A DNA stretch of 34,165 nucleotides. It comes from a virus. Below the pieces are notes generated by a model. That model saw only the letters and a list, made by a program, of their open reading frames with translations. It did no database searches and was not told the DNA's origin. Below are positions 808 to 34,165 of the stretch, piece after piece. The stretch is taken from the IMG/VR virus record IMGVR_UViG_3300048588_000506, positions 1 to 34,165 of that record; one strand, given 5' to 3'. Made by a program: the position numbers and the translations under genes. Numbering within the stretch: position 1 is the first letter of the stretch; every line of letters starts with the position of its first letter.

Positions 808-1224
808 ATGAGGGTAAGCATCGAGCACACGGAGAAGTCGCAGGGGCTCATTTTCAAGAAGAAACTCTACGGCTTATCGCTCACGGTGACGTTCTCGGAG
901 GAAGAAAAACAGGTCATCGAAGACCGGAAACTTCACCGGACAATTATCATCGAGCGCGGCCCGCCCGCCGATGTTAACGCGGAGAAGCACGCCAACCGGG
1001 GGCTGGCCGCGAAGATCGCCACGGCCGCGATCAAGGGCGCGGACGCCAACAATTTCCATCTCACCATCGGCAAGCTCTTGAAGGGCAAGGACACCTACTT
1101 CCTGGACGAGGTGGTCGAGGCCAAGGCCTACGAGGAGGAGGTCCGGGACTCGATGCACAAGCTCAAAAGCTACATCACGCTGAGCGAGGGGATCGAGCAG
1201 AAGTCCGACAGCTTCGAACTATGA
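808..1224 (+). CDS. Conserved hypothetical protein between two ATPase genes
   Basis: This 138-aa protein starts at an ATG preceded by a strong ribosome site (GGGAGGGCGG, 2 bases before the ATG). It has no signal peptide or membrane helix. It is mixed alpha/beta with many Lys and Glu residues, and I recognise no catalytic motif. Its stop overlaps the start of the coupling ATPase by four bases (ATGA), so the two are translationally coupled. Its place between a HerA-like ATPase remnant and a TraG/TraD-like ATPase suggests an accessory role in the same DNA-transfer or DNA-pumping machine. That role is inferred from position only. Confidence 0.6.
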   Translation: MRVSIEHTEKSQGLIFKKKLYGLSLTVTFSEEEKQVIEDRKLHRTIIIERGPPADVNAEKHANRGLAAKIATAAIKGADANNFHLTIGKLLKGKDTYFLDEVVEAKAYEEEVRDSMHKLKSYITLSEGIEQKSDSFEL

Positions 1225-3185
1225 AGGACGATTGGGGAGCCCTTATCAGCTTCGCCGTCTTTGCCTTCGCGCTAGGCGTCCTTTGGGTGGCTTTCCTGAT
1301 GACGCCCGTATTCTTGGTGGCCGGCGTTCCGGTGGTGGCGTACCTCTACCACCGGAACTCCCCCAGGACGAAAGAGAAGCTGGCGCGGCAAAGGACCGAG
1401 GCGCTGTACGAACAGGCCAGGGCCATTGCGCCGCCGAACGTGGACGCGCATGCCGATAGGCTATTCGACGCACTCGATGAAACGACCAGGGACGTGGCCG
1501 CCGCCATCTACAAGTTGGAGGGCATCGACCCGCCACCCCCGCTCCCGCCCATCTGCGACAGCATCGAGGGCGCCCGCTATCGGGACCGGCTCATCAAGTA
1601 CATCAACACCGCCCACGATCAGACGGTGTCCGACGAGTTCGTGGACGCGCTCATCGAGTGCATGCCGAGGTTTCCGCCGAGCGAGGGGATATTCGAGGCC
1701 ACCGCGACGCTCACCGGGGATGAAGTGGAACGCCTCATCGCGCCGTTCTACCGGCATGACGACTTCTTCAAGTCGCTGAAGAAGACGCTCGACCGCAATC
1801 TGACGCACCAGAAGGACGTGATGCCGAGCGACTACAAGGGCGACAACGTCACCTACGCTTACCTTCGCGATACGCCGCTCCTGGACCTCGAAACGCGACG
1901 CTTCCGCATCGGCCTCAAGGCCCGAGCCGAGCACACGCAGGTCATCGCGGCATCCGGTTCAGGCAAGACCAGCCTCCTCCAGTACCTCATCCATCACGAC
2001 CTAGACGAGGACTGTTGCGTCATCGTTATCGACAGCCAGAAGCAGCTCATCGACACGCTGGCCAAGCGGGCGGTGTGGACCGATGATATCGCCTACTTCT
2101 CGCCGCGTCATAACCTGGGCCTCAACCTGTTCGACATGCCGGTCCAGGGCGAGCAGGAGATCAATGCCGTCATCGACCTCCTGGAGTACGTCTTCGCCGG
2201 GCTGATGGACGCGAAGCTAACCACTAAGCAGGCCACGCTCTTCAACTACGCCACGCAGCTGATGATGGCTTCGAAGGGGAACCTGTCGTCGCTGCGCCGT
2301 CTCTTGCGGAAGGACGGCGGGGTGATGCCGTTCGCCACCCATATCGAGAAGCTGCCGCGGAGCGCCCAGGACTTCTTTCTTAGCGAGTTCAGCCAGAAGG
2401 GATACGATTCGACCAAAGAGGAGATCATGTGGCGCATCGATTCGATGCAGCGGAACCCCGCCTTCGCCCGCATCTTCGACGCGCCCAAGAACCCGGTCGA
2501 CATGGCGTACGAGATGCGGAACCGCGATCTCATCCTGATCGACACGGACGTGGGCTTCCTCGGGGAAACCGGCTCATCCTTCTTCGGCCGTCTGTTCATC
2601 GCCCTCATCCTCCAGGCGGCTCGGCAACGAGTAGCGTCCGGCGACGTGAAGCGTCCGGTGTACCTTTTCATCGATGAATGCGCCGCCTATCTGGACGCCC
2701 GCCTGGAGACGATGATGGTCCAGGTGCGCAAGGCCAATATCGGCGTGACGCTCGCCCACCAGGACCTCGATCAGCTGCGGAAGGCCGGCATCTTGAACAC
2801 GGTCCTGGGCGGCACAGCCACCAAGTTCGCCGGTCGGCTCTCCGACGCTGACGCCCGCGTGATGGCGTCGAACATGCGGACCAGCCACGAGTTCCTGCAA
2901 AACCTCCCCCGTTACCATTTCGCGCTCAGCCGGCTGGGCGAAGCGACGGCCGACGTGTCGTTCAACACCTGGACATATGAGAAGGCGGATAAGCGTACGG
3001 ACTACGAGGGCATGGTCGCGGAGATGGAGCGGCGGTACGGCTACACCCCGCCGCCACCGGCGCCGGAAGTTGCGCCGCCACCGCTCGATCGAACGGCACC
3101 GGCACCAAGGCCGGCCCCCAGACCGAAGGCCCCGAAACCAGCGCCTCCAGTGGATGAAGAAATCCGGCCAACGAACAAATTGTGA
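1221..3185 (+). CDS. TraG/TraD/VirD4-like coupling ATPase, membrane anchored
   Basis: This 654-aa protein belongs to the HerA/VirD4 group of DNA-pumping ATPases. Two hydrophobic segments at about residues 8-42 would anchor it in the inner membrane with the ATPase in the cytoplasm. Walker A is ASGSGKTS at about 244-251, Walker B is YLFIDEC at about 480-486, and LAHQDLDQL follows near 510, in the usual position of the post-Walker B Gln motif. The C-terminus is a Pro-rich, Lys-rich tail, probably disordered. Such ATPases recruit DNA-protein substrates to a conjugation channel. Here there are no channel (VirB) genes in view, so it would have to borrow one, or serve another DNA-translocation job. 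It starts in an ATGA overlap with the preceding gene. Confidence 0.75.
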   Translation: MKDDWGALISFAVFAFALGVLWVAFLMTPVFLVAGVPVVAYLYHRNSPRTKEKLARQRTEALYEQARAIAPPNVDAHADRLFDALDETTRDVAAAIYKLEGIDPPPPLPPICDSIEGARYRDRLIKYINTAHDQTVSDEFVDALIECMPRFPPSEGIFEATATLTGDEVERLIAPFYRHDDFFKSLKKTLDRNLTHQKDVMPSDYKGDNVTYAYLRDTPLLDLETRRFRIGLKARAEHTQVIAASGSGKTSLLQYLIHHDLDEDCCVIVIDSQKQLIDTLAKRAVWTDDIAYFSPRHNLGLNLFDMPVQGEQEINAVIDLLEYVFAGLMDAKLTTKQATLFNYATQLMMASKGNLSSLRRLLRKDGGVMPFATHIEKLPRSAQDFFLSEFSQKGYDSTKEEIMWRIDSMQRNPAFARIFDAPKNPVDMAYEMRNRDLILIDTDVGFLGETGSSFFGRLFIALILQAARQRVASGDVKRPVYLFIDECAAYLDARLETMMVQVRKANIGVTLAHQDLDQLRKAGILNTVLGGTATKFAGRLSDADARVMASNMRTSHEFLQNLPRYHFALSRLGEATADVSFNTWTYEKADKRTDYEGMVAEMERRYGYTPPPPAPEVAPPPLDRTAPAPRPAPRPKAPKPAPPVDEEIRPTNKL

Positions 3186-3191: not shown

Positions 3192-3279
3192 TTCAGGCAG
3201 TTGCAGGGGCGCTTATTTCTAATCACCGCCCCTCATCGCGAACGTGGCGCTCGCCCGCGAAGCCACTATCGCTGCTTCT

Positions 3280-4206
3280 ATGTCAAAACCCATCGGACGC
3301 GGCTGGTTCCATGAGAAGCCGCCCGTCGAAGAGCAGATCGACCTCAAGCCGACCGAACGCCAGGCGCGCTGGCTGCGGTTCTTGCTGCTCCACGGGCCGC
3401 TGCCGTCGTCGTTTCTGTTCGCCCTGGAGGGGGAGAAGTCAGCCACCGAATTGCGGTCAGCTCAGCTTCCCCTTCGCCGCCTCTGGCAAGGCGGTTTCAT
3501 CATCCGCCCGCATCAGCAGCGCGAGACCGAGAACTCCAACTACAACGAGTACGTGTACGACCTCTCGGAGCAGGGAAGGCGGTACCTTCGCGACCAGGGC
3601 CACTGGATCGACACCGTGCGCCCGACCGGTCCATGGGTCCATCAGCTGTTCGTGGCGACCGTCACCGCCACGGCCGATATCTTCTGCCAGCGCGAGGGCT
3701 ACCGCTACATCCCGCCGCATGAATATCTCGGTGAGCAACCTGCGACGGCTAAGGTGCCGTTCCATTGGGACGGGAAGGCCATCACTTTGTCTTTGGCACC
3801 CGATGCTGTCTTCGCCATCGACTACGGCAAGAGCTTCATCGCCTATGCCCTGGAGGCCGACCGGGACACCGAGATCAGCACGCCGAGGAGCCGCAATAAC
3901 CCCTACCGGAAGAGCGACCTCCGCTCCGTGCGCCAGTACGTTCAGTTCATCGGTCAGAAGCAGTACAAAACCGCCTACGGCCGCTCGGCCATGATGGTCC
4001 TGCTCTTCATCACGGCGAATGAAACCAGGAAGGCGCGGTTTCTCGATGTGGTCGCGGGCGAGATGTCGCCGTGCTCCTTCATCGCTGCCGGCGTCGTCCC
4101 CGAGTTCGGCAAGCCATGGAAGCCGCCGCGTCCGCTATTTCATCTGTTTGACCAGCCGCTCGACCGCGCCGGCAAGGACGGTTTTGTCATAAAGAAACCC
4201 GCCTAG
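3280..4206 (+). CDS. Replic_Relax-type protein (plasmid replication-relaxation family)
   Basis: The 308-aa protein has an N-terminal winged-helix-like section (TERQARWLRFLL ... LRRLWQGGFI, about residues 25-80). A larger domain follows with FAIDYGKSFIAYALEADRDTE at about 183-204, a nuclease-like acidic strand. This layout matches the Replic_Relax family found on plasmids and integrative elements, often beside TraG/TraD-like ATPases as here. These proteins are thought to process or bind the origin of replication or transfer. A GTG at 3244 in frame would add 12 residues; neither start has a ribosome site. I chose the ATG because the added residues look unstructured. The family call rests on overall pattern and context, not on an alignment. 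Confidence 0.6.
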   Translation: MSKPIGRGWFHEKPPVEEQIDLKPTERQARWLRFLLLHGPLPSSFLFALEGEKSATELRSAQLPLRRLWQGGFIIRPHQQRETENSNYNEYVYDLSEQGRRYLRDQGHWIDTVRPTGPWVHQLFVATVTATADIFCQREGYRYIPPHEYLGEQPATAKVPFHWDGKAITLSLAPDAVFAIDYGKSFIAYALEADRDTEISTPRSRNNPYRKSDLRSVRQYVQFIGQKQYKTAYGRSAMMVLLFITANETRKARFLDVVAGEMSPCSFIAAGVVPEFGKPWKPPRPLFHLFDQPLDRAGKDGFVIKKPA

Positions 4207-4522: not shown

Positions 4523-4898
4523 TGTACTCTCCTTCTCCAGTCACTTGCTGGGAGGGAGAGGCGGCGAAATCCTATTATGTGGCATAGTGAATGAAGCACC
4601 GTTCCACGCCTTCCCCTCTCAGCAAGCAACTTTCGACTTGGCATCTATCAGGACTGGCGACAGATACTATCTTAGATGATGTACTGGCCTCTGTGTGGGA
4701 GTTCAACCCATACACGCCACTTAGTAGCCTAGGACTAAGTGCGTCACAGAAGTCAATACACCATCTCTCCCGCTCCCTACGCCCGGCATATCTACCGAGG
4801 CGTCTAGGATGTAAGACACCAATGGCCAAAGCCACAGGGCGTAGGAAGCAGGATATCTGGTATGATTATATCAGAAGTACAAACCCGTGGAGGTAGCG
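4523..4898. other. Intergenic region with strong predicted structure
   Basis: No convincing gene lies in these 376 bp. Several perfect inverted repeats do: 4718-4725 with 4734-4741 (8 bp, extendable to 11 bp with one bulged base), 4776-4784 with 4837-4845 (9 bp), and 4823-4826 with 4831-4834. The region also holds the promoter of the minus-strand small gene and an extended -10 element at 4858. It could be a regulatory leader, an unannotated RNA or an operator region. I cannot tell which. Confidence 0.4.
4858..4866 (+). promoter_or_regulatory. Extended -10 promoter, TGGTATGAT
   Basis: TGn plus TATGAT lies about 32 bases before the ATG at 4899. Unlike the leaderless phage promoters, it leaves room for a short leader with a GGAGG ribosome site. 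Confidence 0.5.
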
Positions 4899-5498
4899 AT
4901 GGGGAATGTTCCCTATTTGGATTTTCAGGCCATCAAGCGCTCATACTCCATGGAGGAGATCATGGCGCTGACCGGCCTCGCGTTTAAGAAGGATGGAAAG
5001 TCATTCCGATGCAGCTGCCCGGTCCACAAAGGCGGGCCTCGCTCACTGGTCGTGTCGCCGGCCGAGAAGGATGACAAGGGCGACACCGGGGTGTTCTTCT
5101 GCCACGCCGCGAACGTCGGCGGCGACCGGGTGGCGCTCCTGGCGCACGTCCGCGACGCCAAGCCCTACGGCATCTTCAAGGAGCTGGCCGAAAGCCGGCC
5201 GGCCGAGACACCAAAGGCGCCGCCACCGGCGCCCGCAACAGTTCCCGAAGAGAAGGAGAAAGAAGCAAGGGGGACTGGCCTGCCACCCTTGCCCTACCTG
5301 GAAAGCGATCACGACGCTGTACGAGCTATGGGATTTCGACCAGACATCGCCAAAGCTCTAGGCATCGGGTTCGCGCCTCGCGGCCTACACAAACAGCGTT
5401 TAGCTGTTCCTCTGCGTTTAGCAGACGGCCGCTTGGCTGGGTACCTCTCCATTCCGGCGACTACGAGTGTCCAGCTCCCGCCGAAGTGGCATCTTTGA
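4899..5498 (+). CDS. CHC2-type zinc-finger protein, primase-like N-terminus only
   Basis: This 199-aa protein starts at the ATG at 4899, behind GGAGG. It has the beginning of a DnaG-like primase zinc domain: FRCSCPVH at about 36-43 and FFCHAANVGGD at about 66-76. The usual fourth ligand is not where expected (CHAA in place of CxxC), so metal binding may be altered. A Pro/Glu-rich linker follows, and then a segment like the start of a primase core (FAPRGLHKQRLAVPLRLADG, 162-181). The TOPRIM catalytic residues are absent because the protein ends too early. It may bind template or cooperate with host primase rather than make primers itself. Confidence 0.65.
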   Translation: MGNVPYLDFQAIKRSYSMEEIMALTGLAFKKDGKSFRCSCPVHKGGPRSLVVSPAEKDDKGDTGVFFCHAANVGGDRVALLAHVRDAKPYGIFKELAESRPAETPKAPPPAPATVPEEKEKEARGTGLPPLPYLESDHDAVRAMGFRPDIAKALGIGFAPRGLHKQRLAVPLRLADGRLAGYLSIPATTSVQLPPKWHL

Positions 5499-7864: not shown

Positions 7865-8536
7865 ATGGATATTGTCTATCCGTTGAAGCGCACCGGCTTC
7901 AATCGTGAACTCCGCTATTCCCTCCGCTCCCTTAGAAACCTCCCGCACCGCCACGTTTTCATAGCCGGGGATGCGCCGTCGTGGGTTCGGAACGTGATCC
8001 ACCTACCGGTGCCGCAGCGCGGCACCAAGTACCAGAACTCCCGTGCCAACATTCTCACCGCCGCTCGCGATCCCCGCGTCTCCAGGGATTTCATCCTGAT
8101 GAACGACGACTTTTACGTGCTGTCGCGGCAGAAGACTGTGAAGCCCATGCACATCGGAGACATGGATGCCTTCATGGCGACTTTCCCGTTCCGTGGAGCC
8201 TATTGGGATTTGATGGTGAAGACGCGCTTGCTCCTCAGCGATCTCGGCATCGGCCGGCCGAAGTTCTACGAGCTCCACGTACCCTGCGTTTACAACAGGA
8301 AGAAGCTGCTCGCCATGGTGGAGCGGCTGGATGGCCACGAGTATATGATGAGGACCGTATACCATAACCTTTATGGCTCAGGCGGTAGGGGGCGGGATGA
8401 TGTAAAGAAGCACAAGCGTGCCCAGGAGATCGTGGAAACGGACTACCTGTCATCGTCGAACGGAATGATAAAGAAGCGAGCGTTCAAGGCATGGCTCAAC
8501 GAGCGGTTTGGCGAGGTGTGCGAGTATGAGGCGTGA
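7865..8536 (+). CDS. Stealth-like sugar-phosphate transferase
   Basis: The 223-aa protein starts MDIVYPLKRTGFNRELRYS and contains RDFILMNDDFYVL at about residues 75-87. These two stretches look like the CR1 and CR2 regions of Stealth proteins, which transfer sugar phosphates onto capsular or surface polysaccharides; the NDD would hold the metal or nucleotide. A frame extension to 7820 is possible but would run through the T-arm-like hairpin and the -10 element, so I start at 7865. In a phage such a gene could modify the host surface or a virion glycan. The family call is by motif memory and is moderate. Confidence 0.6.
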   Translation: MDIVYPLKRTGFNRELRYSLRSLRNLPHRHVFIAGDAPSWVRNVIHLPVPQRGTKYQNSRANILTAARDPRVSRDFILMNDDFYVLSRQKTVKPMHIGDMDAFMATFPFRGAYWDLMVKTRLLLSDLGIGRPKFYELHVPCVYNRKKLLAMVERLDGHEYMMRTVYHNLYGSGGRGRDDVKKHKRAQEIVETDYLSSSNGMIKKRAFKAWLNERFGEVCEYEA

Positions 8537-8631: not shown

Positions 8632-9018
8632 ATGGCGAAGTCGAGATTCCGCCCGCTCCATGATCGCGTCGTTGTCCGACGCGTAGAATCCGAGGAGCGG
8701 ACCCGAGGCGGCATTATCATTCCCGATACCGCCAAAGAGAAGCCGCTCGAAGGCGAAATTGTTGCGGTTGGTTCGGGTGCCCGAGACGAGACAGGCAAGC
8801 TTGTCCCGCTGGATGTCCGGTCGGGTGATCGTGTCCTCTTTGGAAAGTGGTCTGGCACAGAGGTGAAACTCAACGGTGAAGAGCTCCTTATTCTGAAGGA
8901 GTCCGACATCATGGGGATAATCGGGGGAGGAGGGAGGGTATACCTACGAGGCGGCGGCCTCGCGGGTGATCCCGGGACTGGCTCAGAGCCTCGACCGACT
9001 AAGCGCCGGCGCAAGTAG
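8632..9018 (+). CDS. groES: Co-chaperonin GroES with a basic C-terminal extension
   Basis: Residues 5-95 are a standard Gro[21 protein letters not shown], the mobile-loop contact [10 protein letters not shown] that docks on GroEL, and [20 protein letters not shown]. It closely resembles rhizobial GroES. Normal GroES is about 95-105 residues; this one has 128, ending in a Gly-rich then Arg/Lys-rich tail ([12 protein letters not shown]). No groEL follows, so it must work with host GroEL, as phage co-chaperonins do for coat protein folding. It lies shortly before the packaging and coat genes. Low-quality ribosome site; a TATAGT-type -10 lies about 40 bases upstream. Confidence 0.9.
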
Positions 9019-9021
9019 CTT

Positions 9022-10053
9022 ATGCTTTCCAGCCTGCCCAAGCTCGCAGACCGGGCGTTCATCATCGGCTTCCTGTTGCCGGCGGTGCTATTTCTCGTCG
9101 GGTTCTACGTCGTCTTTTCTGACATCGAGGCTGTTGCCAAGGCCGCGGAAGCAGCGTTTGCAAAGGAAGCGCTTGAAACTTTTGTCTTCGCGGCCGTCGT
9201 GGCTTGGCTCTTGGCGATATCGCTTTCGATTTTAAATCACGGCCTCCTCAGGGCTTTTGAGGGGTATCGATTTCCCATCCGCCGGTTCAAGGCGAAGCAG
9301 ATAAAGTCCTTTCGTGAGATCAACGCTAAAATCACCGAGCTAGATAAGCAGTGGAGCGACATGGGGCGTGCCTTCCCGGCCGAAAAGCAAAAGCAACACG
9401 CCCTCCTACTGCGTGCATTCGTAAGCACTTTCCCCTCGGAAGAGCGACTGGTGCTCTCAACTCGATTCGGAAATGCAATTCGAGCCTTCGAGGACTACTC
9501 ACGAGCCGTTTATGGAGCGGACAGCATTCCTCTTTGGAACCATCTTGCCGCCATACTGAACGATCGCTTCGCACAGGAACTCGAAGATGCGCGTACACAT
9601 GTAAACAGCCTCATCAACCTGTCGTTTCTTTCCGCAGTTATCTCGTTGTTGGCCATCCTACGTTTTCTTCTTGAACTGCCTTGGAGCACGTCTCCTTCGC
9701 TCTATTGGCTGATTGTCGCTCCATGGTCATTACTCACGATATTTGGTGCGGGGGCTGTGATTTCGCGACTGGCATATCTATTGGCAATAGAACGTGCGAT
9801 CGCATGGGGCAGCGTCGTAAAGGCAGCGTTTGATTGCTTCCTACCTGAGCTGGCAGTGAAGCTTGGCTACAATTTGCCTGATAGTCCTAAGCTGCGACGT
9901 GCTTTCTGGAATGAGTTTAGTAAGCAGGCGATTTTTCACTTGCCGCTAAAGCGTGAACGCTGGCTGGCGAAGAAAACTCCCACAACAGCCGCAAAACGGC
10001 AATCTGCAACGTCTAAGGCAAAGTCACAAAACCTAAGAAGTAGGGGAAAATAG
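9022..10053 (+). CDS. Membrane protein, four predicted helices, unknown function
   Basis: This 343-aa protein has hydrophobic segments at about residues 13-33, 50-70, 195-217 and 225-252. A long charged helical region lies between the second and third, and the C-terminal tail is very basic. It begins 3 bases after groES without a ribosome site of its own, so it is probably coupled to it. GC content is visibly lower than in the phage structural genes, a sign of separate origin. In this position, between an orphan groES and the terminase, it is likely an accessory gene such as a membrane-based exclusion or defence factor. That is inference; I recognise no family. Confidence 0.6.
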   Translation: MLSSLPKLADRAFIIGFLLPAVLFLVGFYVVFSDIEAVAKAAEAAFAKEALETFVFAAVVAWLLAISLSILNHGLLRAFEGYRFPIRRFKAKQIKSFREINAKITELDKQWSDMGRAFPAEKQKQHALLLRAFVSTFPSEERLVLSTRFGNAIRAFEDYSRAVYGADSIPLWNHLAAILNDRFAQELEDARTHVNSLINLSFLSAVISLLAILRFLLELPWSTSPSLYWLIVAPWSLLTIFGAGAVISRLAYLLAIERAIAWGSVVKAAFDCFLPELAVKLGYNLPDSPKLRRAFWNEFSKQAIFHLPLKRERWLAKKTPTTAAKRQSATSKAKSQNLRSRGK

Positions 10054-10090: not shown

Positions 10091-10501
10091 ATGGCGCGGC
10101 CAACGAAATACGACAAGCGCTTCATAAAGAACGTCAATGACTATCTCATTGACTGCGAGGATCAGATCGAGGAGTATCACCGTACGCGCGGCGAGAAGTC
10201 CGATACCTATGATCGCCTGGTGCACGTGAAGCTACCCACGGTCGAGGGTTTCGCTCGATACATCGGCGTGAACAAGACCACTCTCTACGAGTGGGCTGAT
10301 CGCTACGCCGCATTTTCCAACGCTTTGGAGTTGATCGTTTCGGTTCAGAAGGACCGGCTCATCAACCACGGCCTGTCCGGTGACTATAATCCGGTGATCG
10401 CGAAGCTAATACTTTCCGCCAACCATGGCATGAGCGAGAAGTACGAAGTGAAGGAGCGTCACACACTAATTCTAGATGAAGGAGAAACAGGTACGGTTTA
10501 G
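10091..10501 (+). CDS. terS: Terminase small subunit
   Basis: This 136-aa protein begins MARPTKYDKRF and contains a helix-turn-helix (VEGFARYIGVNKTTLYEWAD, about 52-71). It then has LINHGLSGDYNPVIAKLILSANH, a pattern I know from phage small terminases that recognise the genome packaging site. Its 3' end overlaps the large-subunit gene by 26 bases, the usual pairing. No ribosome site; the -10 element at 10076 implies a leaderless message. It opens the virion gene block. Confidence 0.82.
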   Translation: MARPTKYDKRFIKNVNDYLIDCEDQIEEYHRTRGEKSDTYDRLVHVKLPTVEGFARYIGVNKTTLYEWADRYAAFSNALELIVSVQKDRLINHGLSGDYNPVIAKLILSANHGMSEKYEVKERHTLILDEGETGTV

Positions 10502-11873
10502 TGACCTCGCTCACTTCACCGCAAAACAGAATAGCGCCGACCAGCTCGTACAGAGCCACAAATACGTCCTCTATGGCGGCGCCATGGGCGGCGGCAAGTC
10601 GTACTGGCTGCGCTGGCAACTCATCAAACTCCTTCTTCGCTGGGCCAAGGCTGGCCGCACAGGAGTCATCGTCGGCCTGTTCTGCGAAGACTATCCGGCG
10701 CTCAAAGACCGCCACCTTTCCAAGATCGGCAAGGAGTTCCCGTCGTGGATCGGCACCTATCACGCCGACCACAAAGAGCACGGCCGCTCATTTATCCTGA
10801 AGCCGGAATACGGCTCCGGCGTCATCGCCTTCCGCAACCTGGACGACCCGTCGAAATACCAGTCAGCCGAGTTCGCCGCCATCGGCATTGATGAGCTGAC
10901 CAAGAACCCGGAGGAGGTGTTCGACGATCTGCGCACCCGTATGCGCTGGCCTGGCATCGTCGACGTGCGCTTCCTCGCCGCCACCAACCCAGGCGGCATC
11001 GGCCATGCCTGGGTGAAGAAGAAGTGGATCGAGGGCATCCATGAGGAGAACGAGCTGGAGGCCGACGAGTTCGCCTACCTGCCGGCGCTCGCGGCCGACA
11101 ATCCACACCTCGACCCGTCCTATCTCCGCTCACTTTCCGGCCTTCCCGAGGATAAGCGCAAGGCCTTCCTCGAAGGCGATTGGGATATCTTCAAAGGGCA
11201 GTATTTCAGCGAGTGGCGGAAGGCGCTGCACGTGGTGGAGCCGTTCAATCCGCACGAGTTCTGGTACAAATTCGTCTCGATCGACTACGGCTACGACGCT
11301 CCCTCGGCCGTGTACTGGCATGGCATCGACGGCGATGGTGTCGACTACGTCTACCGCGAGCTGTACCGGAACAAGCTGACCTACGAGCAACTGGCGGCCG
11401 AGATCGTCGCCATGACACCGGCTCACGAGGAGATCGCCTATTGGGTGGCGGACCCGGCCATTTGGGCGAAGAAGGGCGAAACCGAATTGTCTGGCATGGA
11501 GTTGATGTACAACAAGCACCGGGAAGTCACCGGTCGCGGCATCAACATCGTCAAGGGCAACAATGACCGCATCAACGGTTGGAACCTGCTCCGCGAGTAC
11601 CTGAAGCCGTTCCAGCAGCAGCACCACATCATCGCCAAGCTGCAAGTGTTCTCGACCTGCACGGAGCTGATCCGCACGCTGCCGTCCCTCATCTACGACA
11701 AGCACCGCGTCGAAGACCTGGATAGCGACGGCGAGGACCACGGTGCCGACAGCGTCCGCTACGGCGTCATGTCCCGGCCGCGCAAGGCACCGAAGGCGGT
11801 GGACCCGGTGACCGCTATCCTTGCCCGCCGCAAGGCCCCGTCACCAGCTGGAATGAATGTGGAGCTGGACTAG
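10476..11873 (+). CDS. terL: Terminase large subunit (packaging ATPase-nuclease)
   Basis: This 465-aa protein has all expected motor and nuclease motifs. Walker A is GGAMGGGKS (34-42), Walker B is AIGIDE with D139 and E140, and the coupling motif is ATNP (169-172). The RNase H-like nuclease has acidic residues D270 (SIDYGYD), D326 (VADP) and D425 (HGADSVRYG). It threads DNA into the prohead through the portal and cuts it. Length is normal for the Terminase_3/Terminase_6-like groups. It starts inside the small-subunit gene and ends 18 bases before the portal start. The unbroken motifs suggest a functional protein. Confidence 0.93.
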   Translation: MKEKQVRFSDLAHFTAKQNSADQLVQSHKYVLYGGAMGGGKSYWLRWQLIKLLLRWAKAGRTGVIVGLFCEDYPALKDRHLSKIGKEFPSWIGTYHADHKEHGRSFILKPEYGSGVIAFRNLDDPSKYQSAEFAAIGIDELTKNPEEVFDDLRTRMRWPGIVDVRFLAATNPGGIGHAWVKKKWIEGIHEENELEADEFAYLPALAADNPHLDPSYLRSLSGLPEDKRKAFLEGDWDIFKGQYFSEWRKALHVVEPFNPHEFWYKFVSIDYGYDAPSAVYWHGIDGDGVDYVYRELYRNKLTYEQLAAEIVAMTPAHEEIAYWVADPAIWAKKGETELSGMELMYNKHREVTGRGINIVKGNNDRINGWNLLREYLKPFQQQHHIIAKLQVFSTCTELIRTLPSLIYDKHRVEDLDSDGEDHGADSVRYGVMSRPRKAPKAVDPVTAILARRKAPSPAGMNVELD

Positions 11874-17041: not shown

Positions 17042-17073
17042 AAAGAGGGCGCGTACATTCGCGCCCTCTTTTT
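17042..17073 (+). terminator. Strong Rho-independent terminator
   Basis: A perfect 12-bp stem (17042-17053 with 17060-17071) around TACATT ends in TTTTT. It separates the head genes from the exported accessory gene. Confidence 0.93.
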
Positions 17074-25277: not shown

Positions 25278-25862
25278 ATGCTATCCGCGCCATTCAAGGG
25301 AGCATACCCGTCTAGCATCTCGCAGGCCTACCATGATGCGCACCGCGCCTTGGACATGGTGTCCTATGCCGCCCCGTTCATTGGCGGCTACGGCGCGCCT
25401 CTTTGTGCTCCCGAAGAGGTTGAGATCATCCGCATCAGCGGCGATGTCCTCACCCCTGATGATTTCTCAGACGACGCGCTCGGCTTCGGCGTTTGGATGA
25501 AGGGCTTGGAAACCGGCATGACGCACTGGTTTCACCACACGCAGGTGCTTCTTCCCGTGAATGTTGGCCAAACCGTCAAGCGCGGCCAGATCGTCGCCTT
25601 CATGGGCAACTCGGGAGAGGTCTACAGCGGCGGCGTTCCCGTTCCGGCGGACCCGAAGGTCCGGTACAACCCGAACTATCCGGGCGTGCACCTGCATTGG
25701 GAAATGAACGAAAAGGGCTACCGGCTTGGCGGCCCCAAGCGGCTACTAGACCCGCGAGCTCACATCGATTGGACGCTCCAGCCGACCTACACGACCGGCG
25801 ACCTGCTGAAGGCGTACTCGGTCGTCGTCGGCAAGGCGGCCGGCTTAATAGCTAAACAATAG
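25278..25862 (+). CDS. M23-type metalloendopeptidase (lysin)
   Basis: This 194-aa protein carries the M23/LytM zinc site: H22 and D26 in HRALD, a His cluster THWFHHT at 82-88, and HLHWEM with H138 and H140. VNVGQTVKRGQIVAFMGNSG (95-114) is the characteristic glycine-rich turn region. It would cut peptide cross-links in peptidoglycan. There is no signal peptide, so release through the adjacent holin is expected. The domain fills most of the protein; no separate cell-wall-binding domain is seen. It lies between a small membrane protein and a holin. Confidence 0.85.
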   Translation: MLSAPFKGAYPSSISQAYHDAHRALDMVSYAAPFIGGYGAPLCAPEEVEIIRISGDVLTPDDFSDDALGFGVWMKGLETGMTHWFHHTQVLLPVNVGQTVKRGQIVAFMGNSGEVYSGGVPVPADPKVRYNPNYPGVHLHWEMNEKGYRLGGPKRLLDPRAHIDWTLQPTYTTGDLLKAYSVVVGKAAGLIAKQ

Positions 25863-25866
25863 AACT

Positions 25867-26130
25867 ATGCTCGAAACTACGATCACCCTCGAAACGCTGG
25901 CGACCATCCCCGTCGTTTCGTTGGGCATGTCATTGCTCATTCAGTTCCTCAAAGGGGCGTTCCCGGGAGCCGATCCACGCCTGATAACCCTCGGTATGAG
26001 CCTCGCCTTTGGTGCGGCGTACTGGTGGCTATCGGATACCAGCCTCCTTGTGTCGATCGTCGGCATCCTGGGCGCCGCTAGCGTCATCTACGGATTCATA
26101 CTCAAGCCGCAACCTTCCGATATGGTATGA
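25867..26130 (+). CDS. Holin (probable, three membrane helices)
   Basis: This 87-aa protein has three hydrophobic stretches, at about residues 10-28, 38-55 and 58-78 (LLVSIVGILGAASVIYGFIL). The N-terminus is short and uncharged and the C-terminus ends in a Lys/Pro tail. Size and topology are those of class I holins, which open the inner membrane to release the endopeptidase encoded just upstream. Four bases separate the two genes. Its last codons contain a TGGTATGAT element. Confidence 0.72.
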   Translation: MLETTITLETLATIPVVSLGMSLLIQFLKGAFPGADPRLITLGMSLAFGAAYWWLSDTSLLVSIVGILGAASVIYGFILKPQPSDMV

Positions 26131-26136
26131 TCGAAG

Positions 26137-26166
26137 TACGGCCGATCGACCGGCCGTATTTCTTAC
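26137..26166 (+). terminator. Rho-independent terminator after the lysis block
   Basis: TACGGCCG pairs with CGGCCGTA (8 bp), followed by TTTCTT. It lies only 5 bases after a TGGTATGAT element at 26123-26131, so that element would produce only a very short transcript. Confidence 0.8.
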
Positions 26167-26176
26167 GTAGACAAAG

Positions 26177-26200
26177 GACCGCTTGGGATGGCGGTCTTTT
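26177..26200 (+). terminator. Second terminator in tandem
   Basis: GACCGC pairs with GCGGTC around TTGGGATG, followed by TTTT. Tandem terminators mark the boundary between late and early-type gene blocks. Confidence 0.75.
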
Positions 26201-26274
26201 GCTATCCACAGGGTATGGTTGCGGTATGCCCTCATAGGTATATACTATAGGGTATTATAAGTTAAGCCCATTTA

Positions 26275-26415
26275 ATGAAGAAACACCAATGCGAGCGCTG
26301 TAACCACGAGTGGTATCCGCGCTCGCCAATCAAGCCCACAGTTTGTCCGAACCCAAAGTGTAAGTCACCTTACTGGAATAAGCCCCGAAAAGATGCAGAG
26401 GAGAAGAGCAACTAA
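26275..26415 (+). CDS. 46-aa zinc-ribbon protein
   Basis: The protein MKKHQCERCNHEWYPRSPIK continues to CPNPKCKSPYWNKPRK. CxxC (6-9) and CxxxxC (24-29) make a zinc ribbon followed by SPYWNKPR, a signature of short phage and plasmid proteins known from many genomes, probably DNA- or RNA-binding regulators. There is no ribosome site. The upstream 50 bases are AT-rich (TATATACTATAGGGTATTAT) and probably hold the promoter. It opens a run of five tiny genes and overlaps the second by 23 bases. Confidence 0.75.
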   Translation: MKKHQCERCNHEWYPRSPIKPTVCPNPKCKSPYWNKPRKDAEEKSN

Positions 26416-30566: not shown

Positions 30567-31763
30567 CTATTGTCTGCTCAACGTGACCATTTGGCGTTGC
30601 ACAGCTTCATCCACGAGCTGGCAGGCGTCTTGTGGGTTGTCGTCAGGGTTGGCCAGTGATCGTGTAATGAGCTTGCCGTTCTCTCGTTTAGTCCGCATCG
30701 GCAGTCCGATCGCCCCGACAAAATATGCTGCACGATCAACATCGACATTGGACGGGTCTATGGAGACGGCAAACTCCGAAACCTCATCTGCATTAATCTC
30801 TATCCGAAGGCCGCCGCCTCCGATGCGAGTTCTTTCAAAAAGTCGGTAGCCGGAAGTGCCCGTCCACTTTCCCGTTTCGAGCGCAAGACATTCCGTCGCG
30901 CGCGTGGCGTTGGCCCCTACTTGATCGATGAAGCGCCCAAAGAGCATCCCTTCGATATTCACTTCATTGCACCTGTCGCAGTAGTCGCCCTCTTCAAGTA
31001 GTAGGCATTGCTTCTTTTGGTTAGTAACAAAACACACGACGGTGCCCGGATCAGCCTGAAAGTTGTGTTCACGAATACAATCTTTCAGAACACGATCGCT
31101 CGTAACATCCTCCGTTGGACGACATTTCGCTGCGGCCAGTGCGGCCGAAGTTTCGAAAAACGTAGCAACAAAAGCAGGATCATACCGCTGACGAAAGGTA
31201 AGTATCAATTTATCCGAACCACCGTCCTTGCGTACGTCAACTCTCTGCAACTCGATTTGAAACGCACTCCAAGGAAATGTTTCAAGACTGCGATCAAAAA
31301 TCTCGCCGCGTGCCTTTTTTTGAAGCAGCGCAACCGAAGCTTCCGCACCGCTTCTTTGAAGTTCGCGGCTCAAGAGAGTACCTTTTATCTCTCCGCCTCC
31401 TCCAGCCACTAGTCCCAAGAAATTCTCAATTCGAGAAGCGGATACAATAACCTGCGCTTCAATTTCGTGCTGGCCGTCCCTCACGCTTGACGAGATTTCT
31501 TGATAGGCTTCTATATAGCCGTTTACCGTGCTGAAGACCCGGTCCCTAACGACAGCATCCCCACTAATTTGCCGATCAGCTACAACCAACTGCTTCAGGG
31601 TATATTGAAGCGCGTTGCGGACGGCGTCGGCCTTAGCTGCTGACGGCGTTTGACCCCTGCCGGTAACGCGGACGGTAATATCTGGCGACTCGGCAAAAGA
31701 TGTTGATGCGAAAAGAAGTGTGGCTAGCATCACTAGCCACGACTTTAAATTGAAGCTCCGCAT
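30567..31763 (-). CDS. Exported protein with FlgT/LPP20-like N-terminal domain
   Basis: I start at ATG 31763 (MRSFNLKSWLVMLATLLFAS), behind GGAGAG, giving a clean signal peptide. Residues about 25-115 have the pattern VTGRGQTPSAAKADAVRNAL ... VNGYIEAYQEISSSVRDGQH ... VIVSASRIENFL. This resembles the repeat domain of FlgT, LPP20 and similar envelope proteins that form rings or bind partners. The rest, about 280 residues, has several cysteines and is not recognised. It is paired with the exported gene upstream (27-bp gap), so they probably work together in the envelope. Confidence 0.6.
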   Translation of the reverse strand: MRSFNLKSWLVMLATLLFASTSFAESPDITVRVTGRGQTPSAAKADAVRNALQYTLKQLVVADRQISGDAVVRDRVFSTVNGYIEAYQEISSSVRDGQHEIEAQVIVSASRIENFLGLVAGGGGEIKGTLLSRELQRSGAEASVALLQKKARGEIFDRSLETFPWSAFQIELQRVDVRKDGGSDKLILTFRQRYDPAFVATFFETSAALAAAKCRPTEDVTSDRVLKDCIREHNFQADPGTVVCFVTNQKKQCLLLEEGDYCDRCNEVNIEGMLFGRFIDQVGANATRATECLALETGKWTGTSGYRLFERTRIGGGGLRIEINADEVSEFAVSIDPSNVDVDRAAYFVGAIGLPMRTKRENGKLITRSLANPDDNPQDACQLVDEAVQRQMVTLSRQ

Positions 31764-31789
31764 AGAGCTCTCCATCGGCAATTGAGATA

Positions 31790-32446
31790 TCACCAGTCTG
31801 TCTGCTTTGTACGTCGTACCTCAGAGCGCTGTATGTCCAGCCGCAGTGTGCCCGGCTTTTGCTCTGGCAAAGCTGGCGCTGACGTGGTCGGTGATGCAAT
31901 CAACGCTTGCAACTCCGAAGCGGCTGCGAGGCTCTTCTTACTGATGCCGACCACTGTCCAGGCTTCGGACTTCGACTCGTCATATCCGCTTTCGAGCACG
32001 ATGACGCCCTTCAGCGTGCCGGCAGCAAACGAGCCTGTTAGCTCTGTGAGCGTCTCCGACACGACCCCTTCGTCCACTTTGGAAAGCGTGCCTTCACCGC
32101 CGTTTTCTCGCCGCTGCGTAGCGCGAGTCACGTCGGACTGGACCTCCGTTACGAGACGCGACGAAGCGCTCATCTGTTCCATGGTTCGAACGAACTGCGC
32201 CTTTGCCTTTTCCTCAGCGATTACCTGAGCTTTGTGAATACCACGGCGGTCCGGAATAACCACTGGCGTACTGTAACGTGAGGACGCTCTTAGTAGTGTT
32301 CCGTCAGGCGCCCACTCAAACTCTACGCCGTTCACGCCAGCTTGCCACGTAAGGCCGCCGTCGCTGCCGACCGATGCCTCGCCGCTAACGGCCGGAACTG
32401 CACCTATCGAGAGAACTGCAACTGCTAGGAAGCGAGATACGCGCAT
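31790..32446 (-). CDS. Exported protein paired with 30567-31763
   Basis: This 218-aa protein starts at ATG 32446 behind GGGAG, with signal peptide MRVSRFLAVAVLSIGAVPAV. The mature part contains KAQVIAEEKAKAQFVRTMEQ and GVIVLESGYDESKSEAWTVV, again LPP20-like envelope features: a helix over a sheet. A Pro-rich C-terminus follows. It is the first gene of a two-gene minus-strand unit whose promoter must lie in the structured region beyond 32446. Lower GC than the phage core suggests acquisition. Function unknown. Confidence 0.6.
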   Translation of the reverse strand: MRVSRFLAVAVLSIGAVPAVSGEASVGSDGGLTWQAGVNGVEFEWAPDGTLLRASSRYSTPVVIPDRRGIHKAQVIAEEKAKAQFVRTMEQMSASSRLVTEVQSDVTRATQRRENGGEGTLSKVDEGVVSETLTELTGSFAAGTLKGVIVLESGYDESKSEAWTVVGISKKSLAAASELQALIASPTTSAPALPEQKPGTLRLDIQRSEVRRTKQTDW

Positions 32447-32491
32447 GAGGGGTCTCCCAGTTGACAGAGAATGAGAACCTATGAGGAGTTT

Positions 32492-32564
32492 GTGTCACAA
32501 GAATGTCTCACAAGCGACACAGTTATCCACAACGTGAGATTGTATCTCGTGATAAGATAATCAT
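32492..32564. other. Candidate replication origin: DnaA box, direct repeats, AT-rich DNA
   Basis: TTATCCACA, a perfect consensus DnaA box, is at 32523-32531. Just before it are two 10-bp direct repeats differing at one base, GTGTCACAAG (32492-32501) and GTCTCACAAG (32505-32514). After it lies an AT-rich stretch. A further inverted TCTCAC-like element (GTGAGA at 32534) follows. Together these resemble a small plasmid-type origin. No Rep gene is adjacent, and the same DNA must also hold the promoter of the minus-strand exported genes. Confidence 0.4.
32550..32558 (+). promoter_or_regulatory. Extended -10-like element, TGATAAGAT, leaderless
   Basis: It lies 6 bases before an ATG at 32565, the same spacing as for the RusA and endopeptidase genes. 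Confidence 0.45.
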
Positions 32565-32669
32565 ATGGCACAAAACACAAACACAATTGGATATTGTCTC
32601 GGCGGGGCAGGTGTTTTGTGCCAACAAAATCACCCTGCCGAGCTAGTACCCAATTGGAAGCACGCTTAA
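32565..32669 (+). CDS. 34-aa leaderless ORF on a structured transcript
   Basis: The frame encodes MAQNTNTIGYCLGGAGVLCQ and a further 14 residues, ending at TAA inside a terminator hairpin. It is preceded by an extended -10 at leaderless spacing. The same DNA is unusually structured: 32566-32578 pairs perfectly with 32611-32623 (13 bp), 32598-32607 pairs with 32633-32642 (10 bp, one G-T), and 32584-32590 pairs with 32650-32656 (7 bp). The first two cross. It may be a small RNA of about 115 bases, a peptide gene, or both. Confidence 0.45.
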   Translation: MAQNTNTIGYCLGGAGVLCQQNHPAELVPNWKHA

Positions 32670-32682
32670 TCGGCGTGCTTTT
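32658..32682 (+). terminator. Rho-independent terminator
   Basis: AAGCACGC pairs perfectly with GCGTGCTT (8 bp) around TTAATCG and ends in TTTT (32679-32682). It ends the short 32565 transcript. Confidence 0.85.
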
Positions 32683-32965
32683 CTGTTGCTGACGGGGAAA
32701 GGTGGCCGAATCTCGCGGCCTCCCGTTGGACGCCATTAAACGCGAGAACTCATAGCTTGATGTTTGGGGCAGCATCCCCAAGCCCGACCGTATGAGGCCA
32801 CTGGTGCCGTAGCCTAGACCCTTGAACGGCAACATGCTCGGGGTAGGACCCAACAAGGGAGCCTACTTACAGTCTGAGGGGAGAACACGCGGAGAGACAA
32901 CCGCATTCCAGTGTTCGAGGTCAGGTTCGTCTGTGACGGCCTTTTAGCCCTTCTATGCCCGCCGT
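32683..32965. other. Structured non-coding region before endonuclease VII
   Basis: No gene is evident in these 283 bp. Perfect stems include 32711-32717 with 32741-32747 (7 bp), 32764-32769 with 32776-32781 (TTGGGG/CCCCAA), 32703-32707 with 32796-32800, and 32813-32821 with 32841-32847 (CCTA..CCC with GGGTAGG). The density of pairing is high for intergenic DNA. Placed directly before an endonuclease VII gene, it might be an intron-like RNA or a leader, but I could not match group I or group II core sequences. Confidence 0.35.
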
Positions 32966-33265
32966 ATGAGATACCAATATCACGAACTTACGAGAGAGGA
33001 CCGACGACGGCTATTCGCTGCCGTCCTGTTATGTCCGATTTGCGAAGGTAACAGCCATTCGTTCAAGATGGTCGCCGACCACTGCCACAAGACCGGGTTC
33101 GTTCGCGGTATCATCTGTGAGCGGTGCAACTCTTGGCTTGGCGTGTTTGAGGGCAAGAGGAGCCGCGATCACAAGCGTCAGCATCTTGAAAAGGTGCAGA
33201 GGCGCTACGGCGTGTCGCCTCGGAGGTTCACCAAATACCTGCATCGACCGCCACTTTATCACTAA
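32966..33265 (+). CDS. Recombination endonuclease VII family nuclease
   Basis: This 99-aa protein has the endonuclease VII signature: CPIC (23-26), VADHCHKTGFVRGIICERCN (36-55) with catalytic D38 and H39 and zinc ligands C23, C26, C51 and C54, then WLG. These enzymes resolve branched DNA or act as homing endonucleases. The C-terminal part is basic and may bind DNA. There is no ribosome site; the ATG at 32966 is the only start that keeps the whole domain. It would partly duplicate RusA, so a homing or host-DNA role is possible. Confidence 0.85.
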   Translation: MRYQYHELTREDRRRLFAAVLLCPICEGNSHSFKMVADHCHKTGFVRGIICERCNSWLGVFEGKRSRDHKRQHLEKVQRRYGVSPRRFTKYLHRPPLYH

Positions 33266-33277
33266 ACCAATCAATTA

Positions 33278-33829
33278 ATGAAAACAACAATCAGGATCGG
33301 CAAACCAGCCGACTACTATCGCAAAGAGTTCAAGAAGAAAGGAATAGAGGTTCTTTCCTATGCCGACGAGTTACTAGACAAAATGTCGGGCAACAAGGAG
33401 GAGGCTATAGAAGTCACTACCATGACGATCAGAGAGTTGGGCTTCACCGACTACCCCACCACCACTAAGTTGTTCAATCGCGTCAAAAAGATGGGAGAAC
33501 TGCTCCCAGCCGAAGCGGGGCCAGCCCTACGTTTAGCGTACGAAGACCAACCTAAGGGTAATTGGCTGTATACGATGATGGAACCAATTGCCGGCTCCGA
33601 TGGCGACCCGCGCGTGTTCAGCGTCCGTCGGCGCGACGACGGCGAACAGTGGCTCGGCACGGATTGGGTCCGCCCCGGCCGCGGGTGGCGTCTCGACGGC
33701 GAGATCGTCTTCCGTCTCCGCAAGGAGAACTCAGACCCTCTGTCCTCTCAGTCCTCTGAACCTTTGATTTTGGAAAAGGCCATTGAGGTCTGCAAGGAGG
33801 CGGGGATGGTGGTTTATAAGCCGATGTAA
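33278..33829 (+). CDS. 183-aa hypothetical phage protein
   Basis: It starts 12 bases after endonuclease VII with no ribosome site. The N-terminal helical half (VTTMTIRELGFTDYPTTTKL, then NRVKKMGELLPAEAGPALRL) is followed by a beta-rich domain with RVFSVRRRDDGEQWLGTDWV and GWRLDGEIVFRLRK, and a helical C-terminus. The WLGTDWV...GWRLDGEIVF stretch looks like a small conserved fold seen in phage and metagenomic proteins, but I cannot name it. It is the last intact gene before the right IS. Confidence 0.6.
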   Translation: MKTTIRIGKPADYYRKEFKKKGIEVLSYADELLDKMSGNKEEAIEVTTMTIRELGFTDYPTTTKLFNRVKKMGELLPAEAGPALRLAYEDQPKGNWLYTMMEPIAGSDGDPRVFSVRRRDDGEQWLGTDWVRPGRGWRLDGEIVFRLRKENSDPLSSQSSEPLILEKAIEVCKEAGMVVYKPM

Positions 33830-33845
33830 GAAAGGAGGTATAAAA

Positions 33846-34106
33846 TTAGAAAACCAAGTCGTCAGCCTAGAGCTGGCCAAGAAGCTTAAAGAGTTGGGAG
33901 TGAAGCAGGAGAGTCATTTTCGATGGATTAAAGACTTTGATAGTTCCATGGATGGATGGTGCGTCACCACGTTACCAGGAGTAGATAGTCGAGAATGGTA
34001 CGCCGCCTTCACCGTCGCAGAGCTGGGGGAGATGCTTGAACCGAGCTTGTCGATGCCAACGAAAGTGTGGCCTGCTGCCGGTTTTTCGGACACCAGGTTA
34101 AGCTAA
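33846..34106 (+). pseudogene. Small phage protein, lost start codon and 3' end replaced by IS sequence
   Basis: The frame reads LENQVVSLELAKKLKELGVK and later AAFTVAELGEMLEP, a well-known short phage protein pattern that normally starts with Met. Here AAGGAGG (33832-33838) is 7 bases before TTA, in the place of the start codon, and no ATG, GTG or TTG follows at usable spacing. The native sequence stops at 34067, where the IS repeat begins. The last 12 residues before TAA at 34104 come from the IS. It is probably inactive. Confidence 0.7.
34068..34094. repeat. Terminal inverted repeat of IS (OrfB end)
   Basis: It begins TGGCCTGCTGCCGG and ends GGACACC. It matches the reverse complement of 100-126 at 24 of 27 positions. 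Confidence 0.88.
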
Positions 34107-34165
34107 CATAGCTTTCTCCTCGAACTCGACGGGGCTCATATAGCCCAGCGTCGAGTGCCGTCGCC
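34098..34165 (-). CDS. IS3-family transposase OrfB, C-terminal fragment
   Basis: Read on the minus strand, the last residues are RRHSTLGYMSPVEFEEKAML plus Ala and a TAA stop. This is the standard C-terminus of the IS3-family OrfB integrase-like (DDE) transposase. The stop lies 4 bases from the inverted repeat. Only about 22 residues are in view; the catalytic residues are outside. Same element type as the OrfA fragment at the left edge. Confidence 0.87.
   Translation of the reverse strand, partial: RRHSTLGYMSPVEFEEKAMLA

Follow-up and report, generated by a model that had tools for sequence, protein, structure and literature searches.

The region around positions 32565-32682 (the unit) of a 34,165-base virus record (IMG/VR IMGVR_UViG_3300048588_000506, the whole of which is referred to here as the window) is best read, with somewhat more confidence than doubt, as the gene of an untranslated small RNA with competing predicted folds. 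Of the three readings offered in the original prediction (small RNA, peptide or copy-control RNA), the small RNA was best supported, by its strong fold, its crossing stems and a terminator-like end on the + strand, and the other two were weak. The product would be an independent, untranslated transcript some 115-120 nt long, reaching from near 32567 to past the hairpin at 32658-32680. The following features were located in the unit and directly upstream of it.

32523-32531, + strand: DnaA-box-like TTATCCACA, upstream of the unit; the sole TTATNCACA in the window
32534-32561, + strand: best sigma-70-like promoter match (GTGAGA-16-GATAAT, 9/12), at chance level
32565-32669, + strand: open frame of 34 codons, MAQNTNTIGYCLGGAGVLCQQNHPAELVPNWKHA, probably untranslated
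32566-32578, + strand: S1, 5' arm of the 13-bp stem (repeat search); 5' tail of the putative RNA
32611-32623, + strand: S1, 3' arm (repeat search); lies inside the apical loop of the long hairpin
32584-32656, + strand: long hairpin with 24-nt arms (32584-32607/32633-32656), 79% complementary; -35.7 kcal/mol
32584-32590/32650-32656, + strand: 7-bp outer stem of the long hairpin
32598-32607/32633-32642, + strand: S2, 10-bp inner stem of the long hairpin, with one G-U
32613-32630, + strand: weak apical 7-bp stem (GUUUUGU-GCCA-ACAAAAU), which competes with S1
32658-32682, + strand: terminator-like hairpin, 8-bp perfect stem (32658-32665/32673-32680) followed by TTTTCTGTT

Crossing inverted repeats

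The inverted repeats are real and exceed chance. When a repeat search was run, the 13-bp perfect repeat claimed for the unit was recovered at 32566-32578/32611-32623, and a scripted check agreed that it crosses the 10-bp stem; neither a 13-bp repeat nor a crossing pair arose in any of 1500 local first-order Markov shuffles. The outer 7-bp repeat was also found, within the 24-nt arms 32584-32607/32633-32656. The 10-bp repeat is present as a stem but contains one G-U and is hence not perfect as described, and 161 of the 1500 shuffles also contained such a stem (10 bp, no more than one G-U). In the window, the 13-bp repeat is the longest of six perfect repeats of at least 10 bp (loop of at most 60), and a perfect repeat of at least 13 bp occurred in 5 of 100 simulated whole windows. 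In a sequence as long as the window, such a repeat by itself is only a little out of the ordinary; it is the combination with the crossing stem that stands out. Crossing stems, as an H-type pseudoknot would need, are present, and the 9-nt loop 32624-32632 would need to span 13 bp.

Fold energy and competing folds

The RNA of 32565-32684 folds at -51.8 kcal/mol (z -6.72), a value equalled by none of 200 shuffles. When all 120-nt windows of this genome were ranked by GC-corrected energy, those over the unit took the 4th and 6th places of 4540. The top three places all go to 4736-4885 (- strand) and the 5th to 26131 (+ strand). Strong folding is not peculiar to the unit, as it is similar or greater at 4736-4885 (-) and 26086-26280 (+).

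The order of folding was followed through the minimum free energy of growing 5' prefixes, without kinetic simulation. S1 with an inner hairpin dominates prefixes of about 54-74 nt (-23.7 kcal/mol at 62-74 nt) and is replaced by the long hairpin from the 78-nt prefix onward. Of 1000 shuffles, 0.9% matched the 66-nt prefix in stability and 5.1% matched it in the number of prefix pairs that are later lost; none matched it in both. When S1 was forced in the full RNA, the energy was -40.6 instead of -53.5 kcal/mol, a cost of about 13 for nested folds. Before loop cost, the stacks sum to -24.7 (S1) and -24.2 kcal/mol (S2) against -35.7 for the nested long hairpin, so a pseudoknot of S1 and S2 is possibly feasible in energetic terms. 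With a loop cost of 10-13 kcal/mol, a guessed and uncomputed figure, its stability would be close to that of the hairpin (-35.7). By a geometric argument, likewise uncomputed, the lower stem of the long hairpin cannot be part of a pseudoknot with S1, because the 5 nt at 32579-32583 would span the entire hairpin stem.

Other structured elements were noticed in the window. Directly upstream of the primase-like gene (CHC2 zinc finger) at 4887, the stretch 4640-4900 contains a pair of long imperfect hairpins in succession (22-nt arms 82% and 25-nt arms 80% complementary). On the - strand it folds at -116 kcal/mol, and its windows head the GC-corrected ranking. In Rfam it matched only below threshold (mir-9261, 23.9 bits vs 86); it could be a structured RNA or a site of single-strand initiation. 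A strong terminator-like hairpin with a 12-bp perfect stem is found at 17042-17071, and two strong terminator-like hairpins stand in tandem at 26086-26280.

Proposed mode of action

The model for the small RNA takes the repeats, their crossing, the fold energies and the prefix fold order from computation. The first 12-13 nt of the RNA would be the complement of the 5' half of the apical loop in the same molecule, and if transcription began at 32567 the S1 arm would stand at the extreme 5' end. During synthesis S1 (13 bp) could form first and then be displaced by the hairpin 32584-32656 once the 3' arm of the latter emerges. Alternatively, the upper 10 bp alone may close, so that S1 is retained in an H-type pseudoknot. 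The 5' tail would thereby lock or time the apical loop from within the molecule, and this loop would be the likeliest contact for a putative target RNA or protein. It is a speculative idea, to which we give little weight, that this is a phage RNA carrying its own antisense, with the 5' end as the built-in inhibitor of the apical loop. On the same tentative footing, each new molecule of such an RNA might have a fixed period of activity or inactivity, or might be pseudoknot-locked until a target or protein opens it.

Elsewhere in the window, exact matches to the unit measure 10-12 nt, and the sole complementary one 10 nt. In a duplex scan run without a null, the best partners of the apical loop were two stretches of - strand RNA, 8016-8075 (-26.6 kcal/mol) and 25336-25395 (-23.1 kcal/mol), each lying within + strand genes; for the 5' tail, no pairing outside the unit was stronger than -15.5 kcal/mol. 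These pairings were not accepted as targets, though they might be.

Genomic setting and a possible role as DNA

The window combines a phage core (large terminase at 10476-11873) with plasmid-like genes recognized by Pfam (TraG/TraD-like at 1221-3185 and replication-relaxation at 3244-4206). On one side of the unit lies 31790-32446, a gene read leftward, and on the other the endonuclease VII gene (32966-33265), read rightward. Third-position GC is 0.51-0.68 in four right-end genes vs 0.74-0.86 in 11 of the 12 other scored genes, the exception being 9022-10053 (0.57), and the codon bias of the genes around the unit is weaker than in most core genes scored. A GroES-type co-chaperonin is encoded at 8632-9018 (Cpn10, E 5.6e-36). 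The leftward genes at 30567-32446 are two adjacent frames with no Pfam/PHROG match and, by eye, signal-like N-termini. At the right end, the - strand of 34110-34165 encodes what we take to be the C-terminal part of a transposase of IS3 type; an insertion element, adjoining the frame 33849-34106, is thus the probable end of the contig.

The best of the alternatives, which we nevertheless consider rather unlikely, is a DNA-level element: the AT-rich stretch, with its DnaA box and its short direct and inverted repeats, would serve a plasmid-like phage as an operator region or as an origin, either of replication or of transfer. On this equally doubtful reading the repeats would serve as DNA hairpins or protein-binding sites. 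It draws on the TraG/TraD-like and replication-relaxation genes and on the base composition, since GC is 33-43% in four 30-nt stretches over 32470-32589 vs 52-55% in the 1-kb windows of 31001-34000. It also draws on the palindrome TTGTGTCACAA at 32490 with an 11-nt repeat 13 nt on, and on the only TTATNCACA of the window, at 32523. The DnaA box that had been noted beside the unit is indeed there, but is weak on its own, as 16 of 100 shuffles held at least one TTATNCACA. This box is single, an iteron array was not found, and no replication initiator was detected among the 30 window proteins (a subset of the window frames) scanned with Pfam. In addition, a + strand stem followed by a T-run fits the end of an RNA; this order points to an RNA of the + strand.

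The palindrome and the similar 11-mer (32490-32514) lie between the leftward gene 31790-32446 and the unit, and are possibly an operator.

Putative transcription signals and a possible leader

The promoter-like element of the original prediction fared poorly: its best match (9/12) is no better than chance, one such match being found in 1.3 kb with 0.7 expected. With a discriminator of 5-8 nt assumed after GTGAGA-16-GATAAT, transcription is expected to start at 32567-32570, which leaves the first two bases of the AUG (32565) outside the transcript, and the exact leaderless spacing claimed for the frame was not upheld. A weaker alternative, TCCACA-19-GATAAG (8/12), gives a start at 32562-32565, which is compatible with a leaderless AUG. 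As for the terminator hairpin, the perfect 8-bp stem was confirmed, but its T-run TTTTCTGTT is interrupted and a simple terminator scan omits 32658-32680. Two sites were listed by the scan in the region (1.3 expected). One of these, 32594-32610, lies inside the unit, and early termination there is possible, because it was this site that was listed rather than 32658-32680.

An improbable reading makes the unit a 5' leader that controls the downstream genes from endonuclease VII (32966-33265) onward, with 32658-32680 as an attenuator and the competing folds setting read-through. The unit does stand about 280 nt upstream of co-oriented genes and its folds are mutually exclusive. However, the predicted terminator stem overlaps neither S1 nor the long hairpin and so is masked by neither, and the 278 nt after the terminator-like hairpin fold no better than shuffles (z 0.13).

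The 34-codon frame and copy control

The frame exists as described but is ordinary, as the window holds 50 ATG frames of 30-40 codons. Under the pooled usage of 16 window genes (the four right-end genes included) it scored -0.32 bits per codon. Real fragments of the same length (n=517) had a mean of 0.28, with 0.6% as low as the frame, and open off-frame fragments (n=1121) had a mean of -0.34 and scored alike. The usage of the four right-end genes alone lacks power (155 real fragments, mean -0.03; frame -0.08), and by this measure the frame is indistinguishable from coding. When the frame was searched by tblastn, one match at E 9 was obtained in phages and none in plasmids. Most of the frame falls within the long hairpin, and its peptide has, by eye, no long hydrophobic stretch.

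A small peptide gene of 34 codons, leaderless or toxic, is on this evidence quite improbable. In its favour are the open frame 32565-32669 itself, the right-end usage and the 8/12 promoter, which would permit a start at 32565. Against it stand the pooled score, the abundance of such frames in the window and a best promoter match whose expected start lies beyond the first two bases of the AUG. Tblastn gave no convincing relative, the frame lies mostly inside the hairpin, and the long hydrophobic stretch is missing.

The suggested copy-control RNA, a plasmid antisense RNA of RNAI/CopA type, is the least probable of all and highly unlikely: the DnaA box lies nearby, and the plan of hairpin and terminator in the unit resembles such RNAs, but no initiator whose mRNA leader could be acted on at the same locus was found among the 30 proteins scanned with Pfam. 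Of the accessible hairpin loop and intrinsic terminator expected of such an RNA, hairpins are present in the unit; the loop can be locked by the 5' tail, the T-run is interrupted and the terminator is absent from the scan. RNAI targets the rep mRNA of its own plasmid, according to PMC10724649, and no rep was found among those 30 proteins; the opposite-strand leftward gene 31790-32446 has no Pfam/PHROG match and, by eye, a signal-like start.

Search for relatives

The searches may omit records very near the window's own genome, so that close relatives may exist unseen. When 32480-32720 was compared with phages by blastn (E up to 10), none of 32 records covered 80% of the query, and the 20 listed covered at most 12%. 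For 32560-32690 in plasmids, one record was obtained (26% covered, E 4). Exact 12-bp S1 arms had no match in viral contigs. The 10-bp S1 arms matched 3 viral and 36 genome contigs, and all 39 were, by eye, other hairpins. The apical 16-mer was present in 85 viral-contig stretches, and local alignment of all 85 gave nothing like the unit.

A covariance model (R1) was built from one sequence entered twice and has low power for diverged relatives. On 80 of the 85 apical 16-mer loci it gave one match (15.5 bits, E 0.6). On 25 sources and on 12 sequence handles it found the window only, the same hairpin on the - strand scoring 27.4 bits in the former search. In the phylum of genome G001, 4 of 398 genomes matched at E of at most 0.1 (best 0.005 per genome, 25.2 bits), and in the class of G003, 2 of 385 (best 0.0027, 25.4 bits). 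These best values are at chance level, because several hundred genomes were covered per search. Folding and inspection of the seven loci concerned showed an ordinary terminator hairpin in six and none in the seventh (L072), and nothing unit-like was seen. With filters off, R1 gave a best E of 1.4 on the loci L164, L163 and L052. No match was found in the window at the gathering thresholds of 4227 Rfam families; the best score below threshold was 18.8 bits vs a threshold of 86. By no route was a relative of the unit obtained, so the stems have no covariation behind them, which is the chief weakness of the case.

A 41-42-nt element (GGCACAAAAC...GTTTTGTGCC) with similar flanks was noticed in contigs of Elusimicrobium, Elusimicrobiaceae, Elusimicrobiales or Elusimicrobiota (L019, L021, L023, L025, L031, L040, L041, L044, L046, L047 and L050), and is apparently a dispersed repeat.

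Neighbouring genes were also used as guides. With TerL, 9 viral loci matched (30-39% identity), as did 716 phage records, none of which reached 60%. The gene 1221-3185 had no match in viral contigs but 14 in plasmid records and matches in 13 of 289 genomes. For DUF982, taken as a pointer to the host, no match was obtained in 11 and 58 genomes (control genomes were also without match) or in plasmids. Endonuclease VII (32966-33265) yielded no homologue. The gene 33278-33829 had none in viral contigs and phages and one in 385 genomes (32% over 155 aa); in the 16-kb stretch around this homologue, six other window proteins including endonuclease VII had no match. The gene 30567-31793 had none in viral contigs or in 10 sequence handles.

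The leftward gene 31790-32446 had no match in plasmids and matched 2 of 398 genomes, one strongly (G027, 46-49% identity); in the family of G027, this was the only one of 8 genomes with a match, the other 7 being without. At its locus L052 the homologues of the 31790 and 30567 genes adjoin, the latter split over two frames (two pieces, 46% and 26% identity). Since the unit was not found upstream of the 31790 homologue there, by eye and with R1, it does not, as judged from this sequence, always accompany the gene pair.

Comparison with known RNAs

PMC11228461 describes the timP mRNA of the type I toxin-antitoxin system timPR as having mutually exclusive folds, one of them a pseudoknot. The unit would likewise be a short RNA with mutually exclusive folds, in its case predicted ones. 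However, timP is translated and has the antisense partner TimR (PMC11228461), whereas the unit has no convincing coding frame and no known partner RNA. For the aapA3 toxin mRNA of Helicobacter pylori, metastable hairpins are proposed to arise during transcription (PMC6733600), as is proposed here for the unit. Those of aapA3 hide the Shine-Dalgarno of a toxin frame (PMC6733600), and no such toxin was identified here. Mutually exclusive early and late folds, which mark mRNAs of the timP and aapA3 type, are seen in the unit among predicted folds only. As to a translated toxin of this type, the frame is not coding-like by pooled usage, undecided by local usage and non-hydrophobic by eye.

The RNAI of I-complex plasmids is, like the putative RNA, a small stem-loop RNA in which the top loop is important (PMC10724649). 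The IncK RNAI measures 60-61 nt and pairs with a rep mRNA stem-loop (PMC10724649), whereas no rep was found among the 30 window proteins scanned. OOP, sar and c4 are short phage-encoded RNAs, as the unit putatively is, and are given in PMC12197685 as antisense RNAs of phage genes; the unit has no exact complement longer than 10 nt elsewhere in the window and no Rfam match at threshold.

Significance

As a single sequence without relatives, the unit is at present a lead and not a discovery. If it is transcribed, the small RNA would join the known phage RNAs as a structured orphan and would provide a compact model for RNAs that refold during synthesis. Should the RNA indeed carry its own antisense, it would be a self-timed regulator outside every family in the copy of Rfam that was searched.
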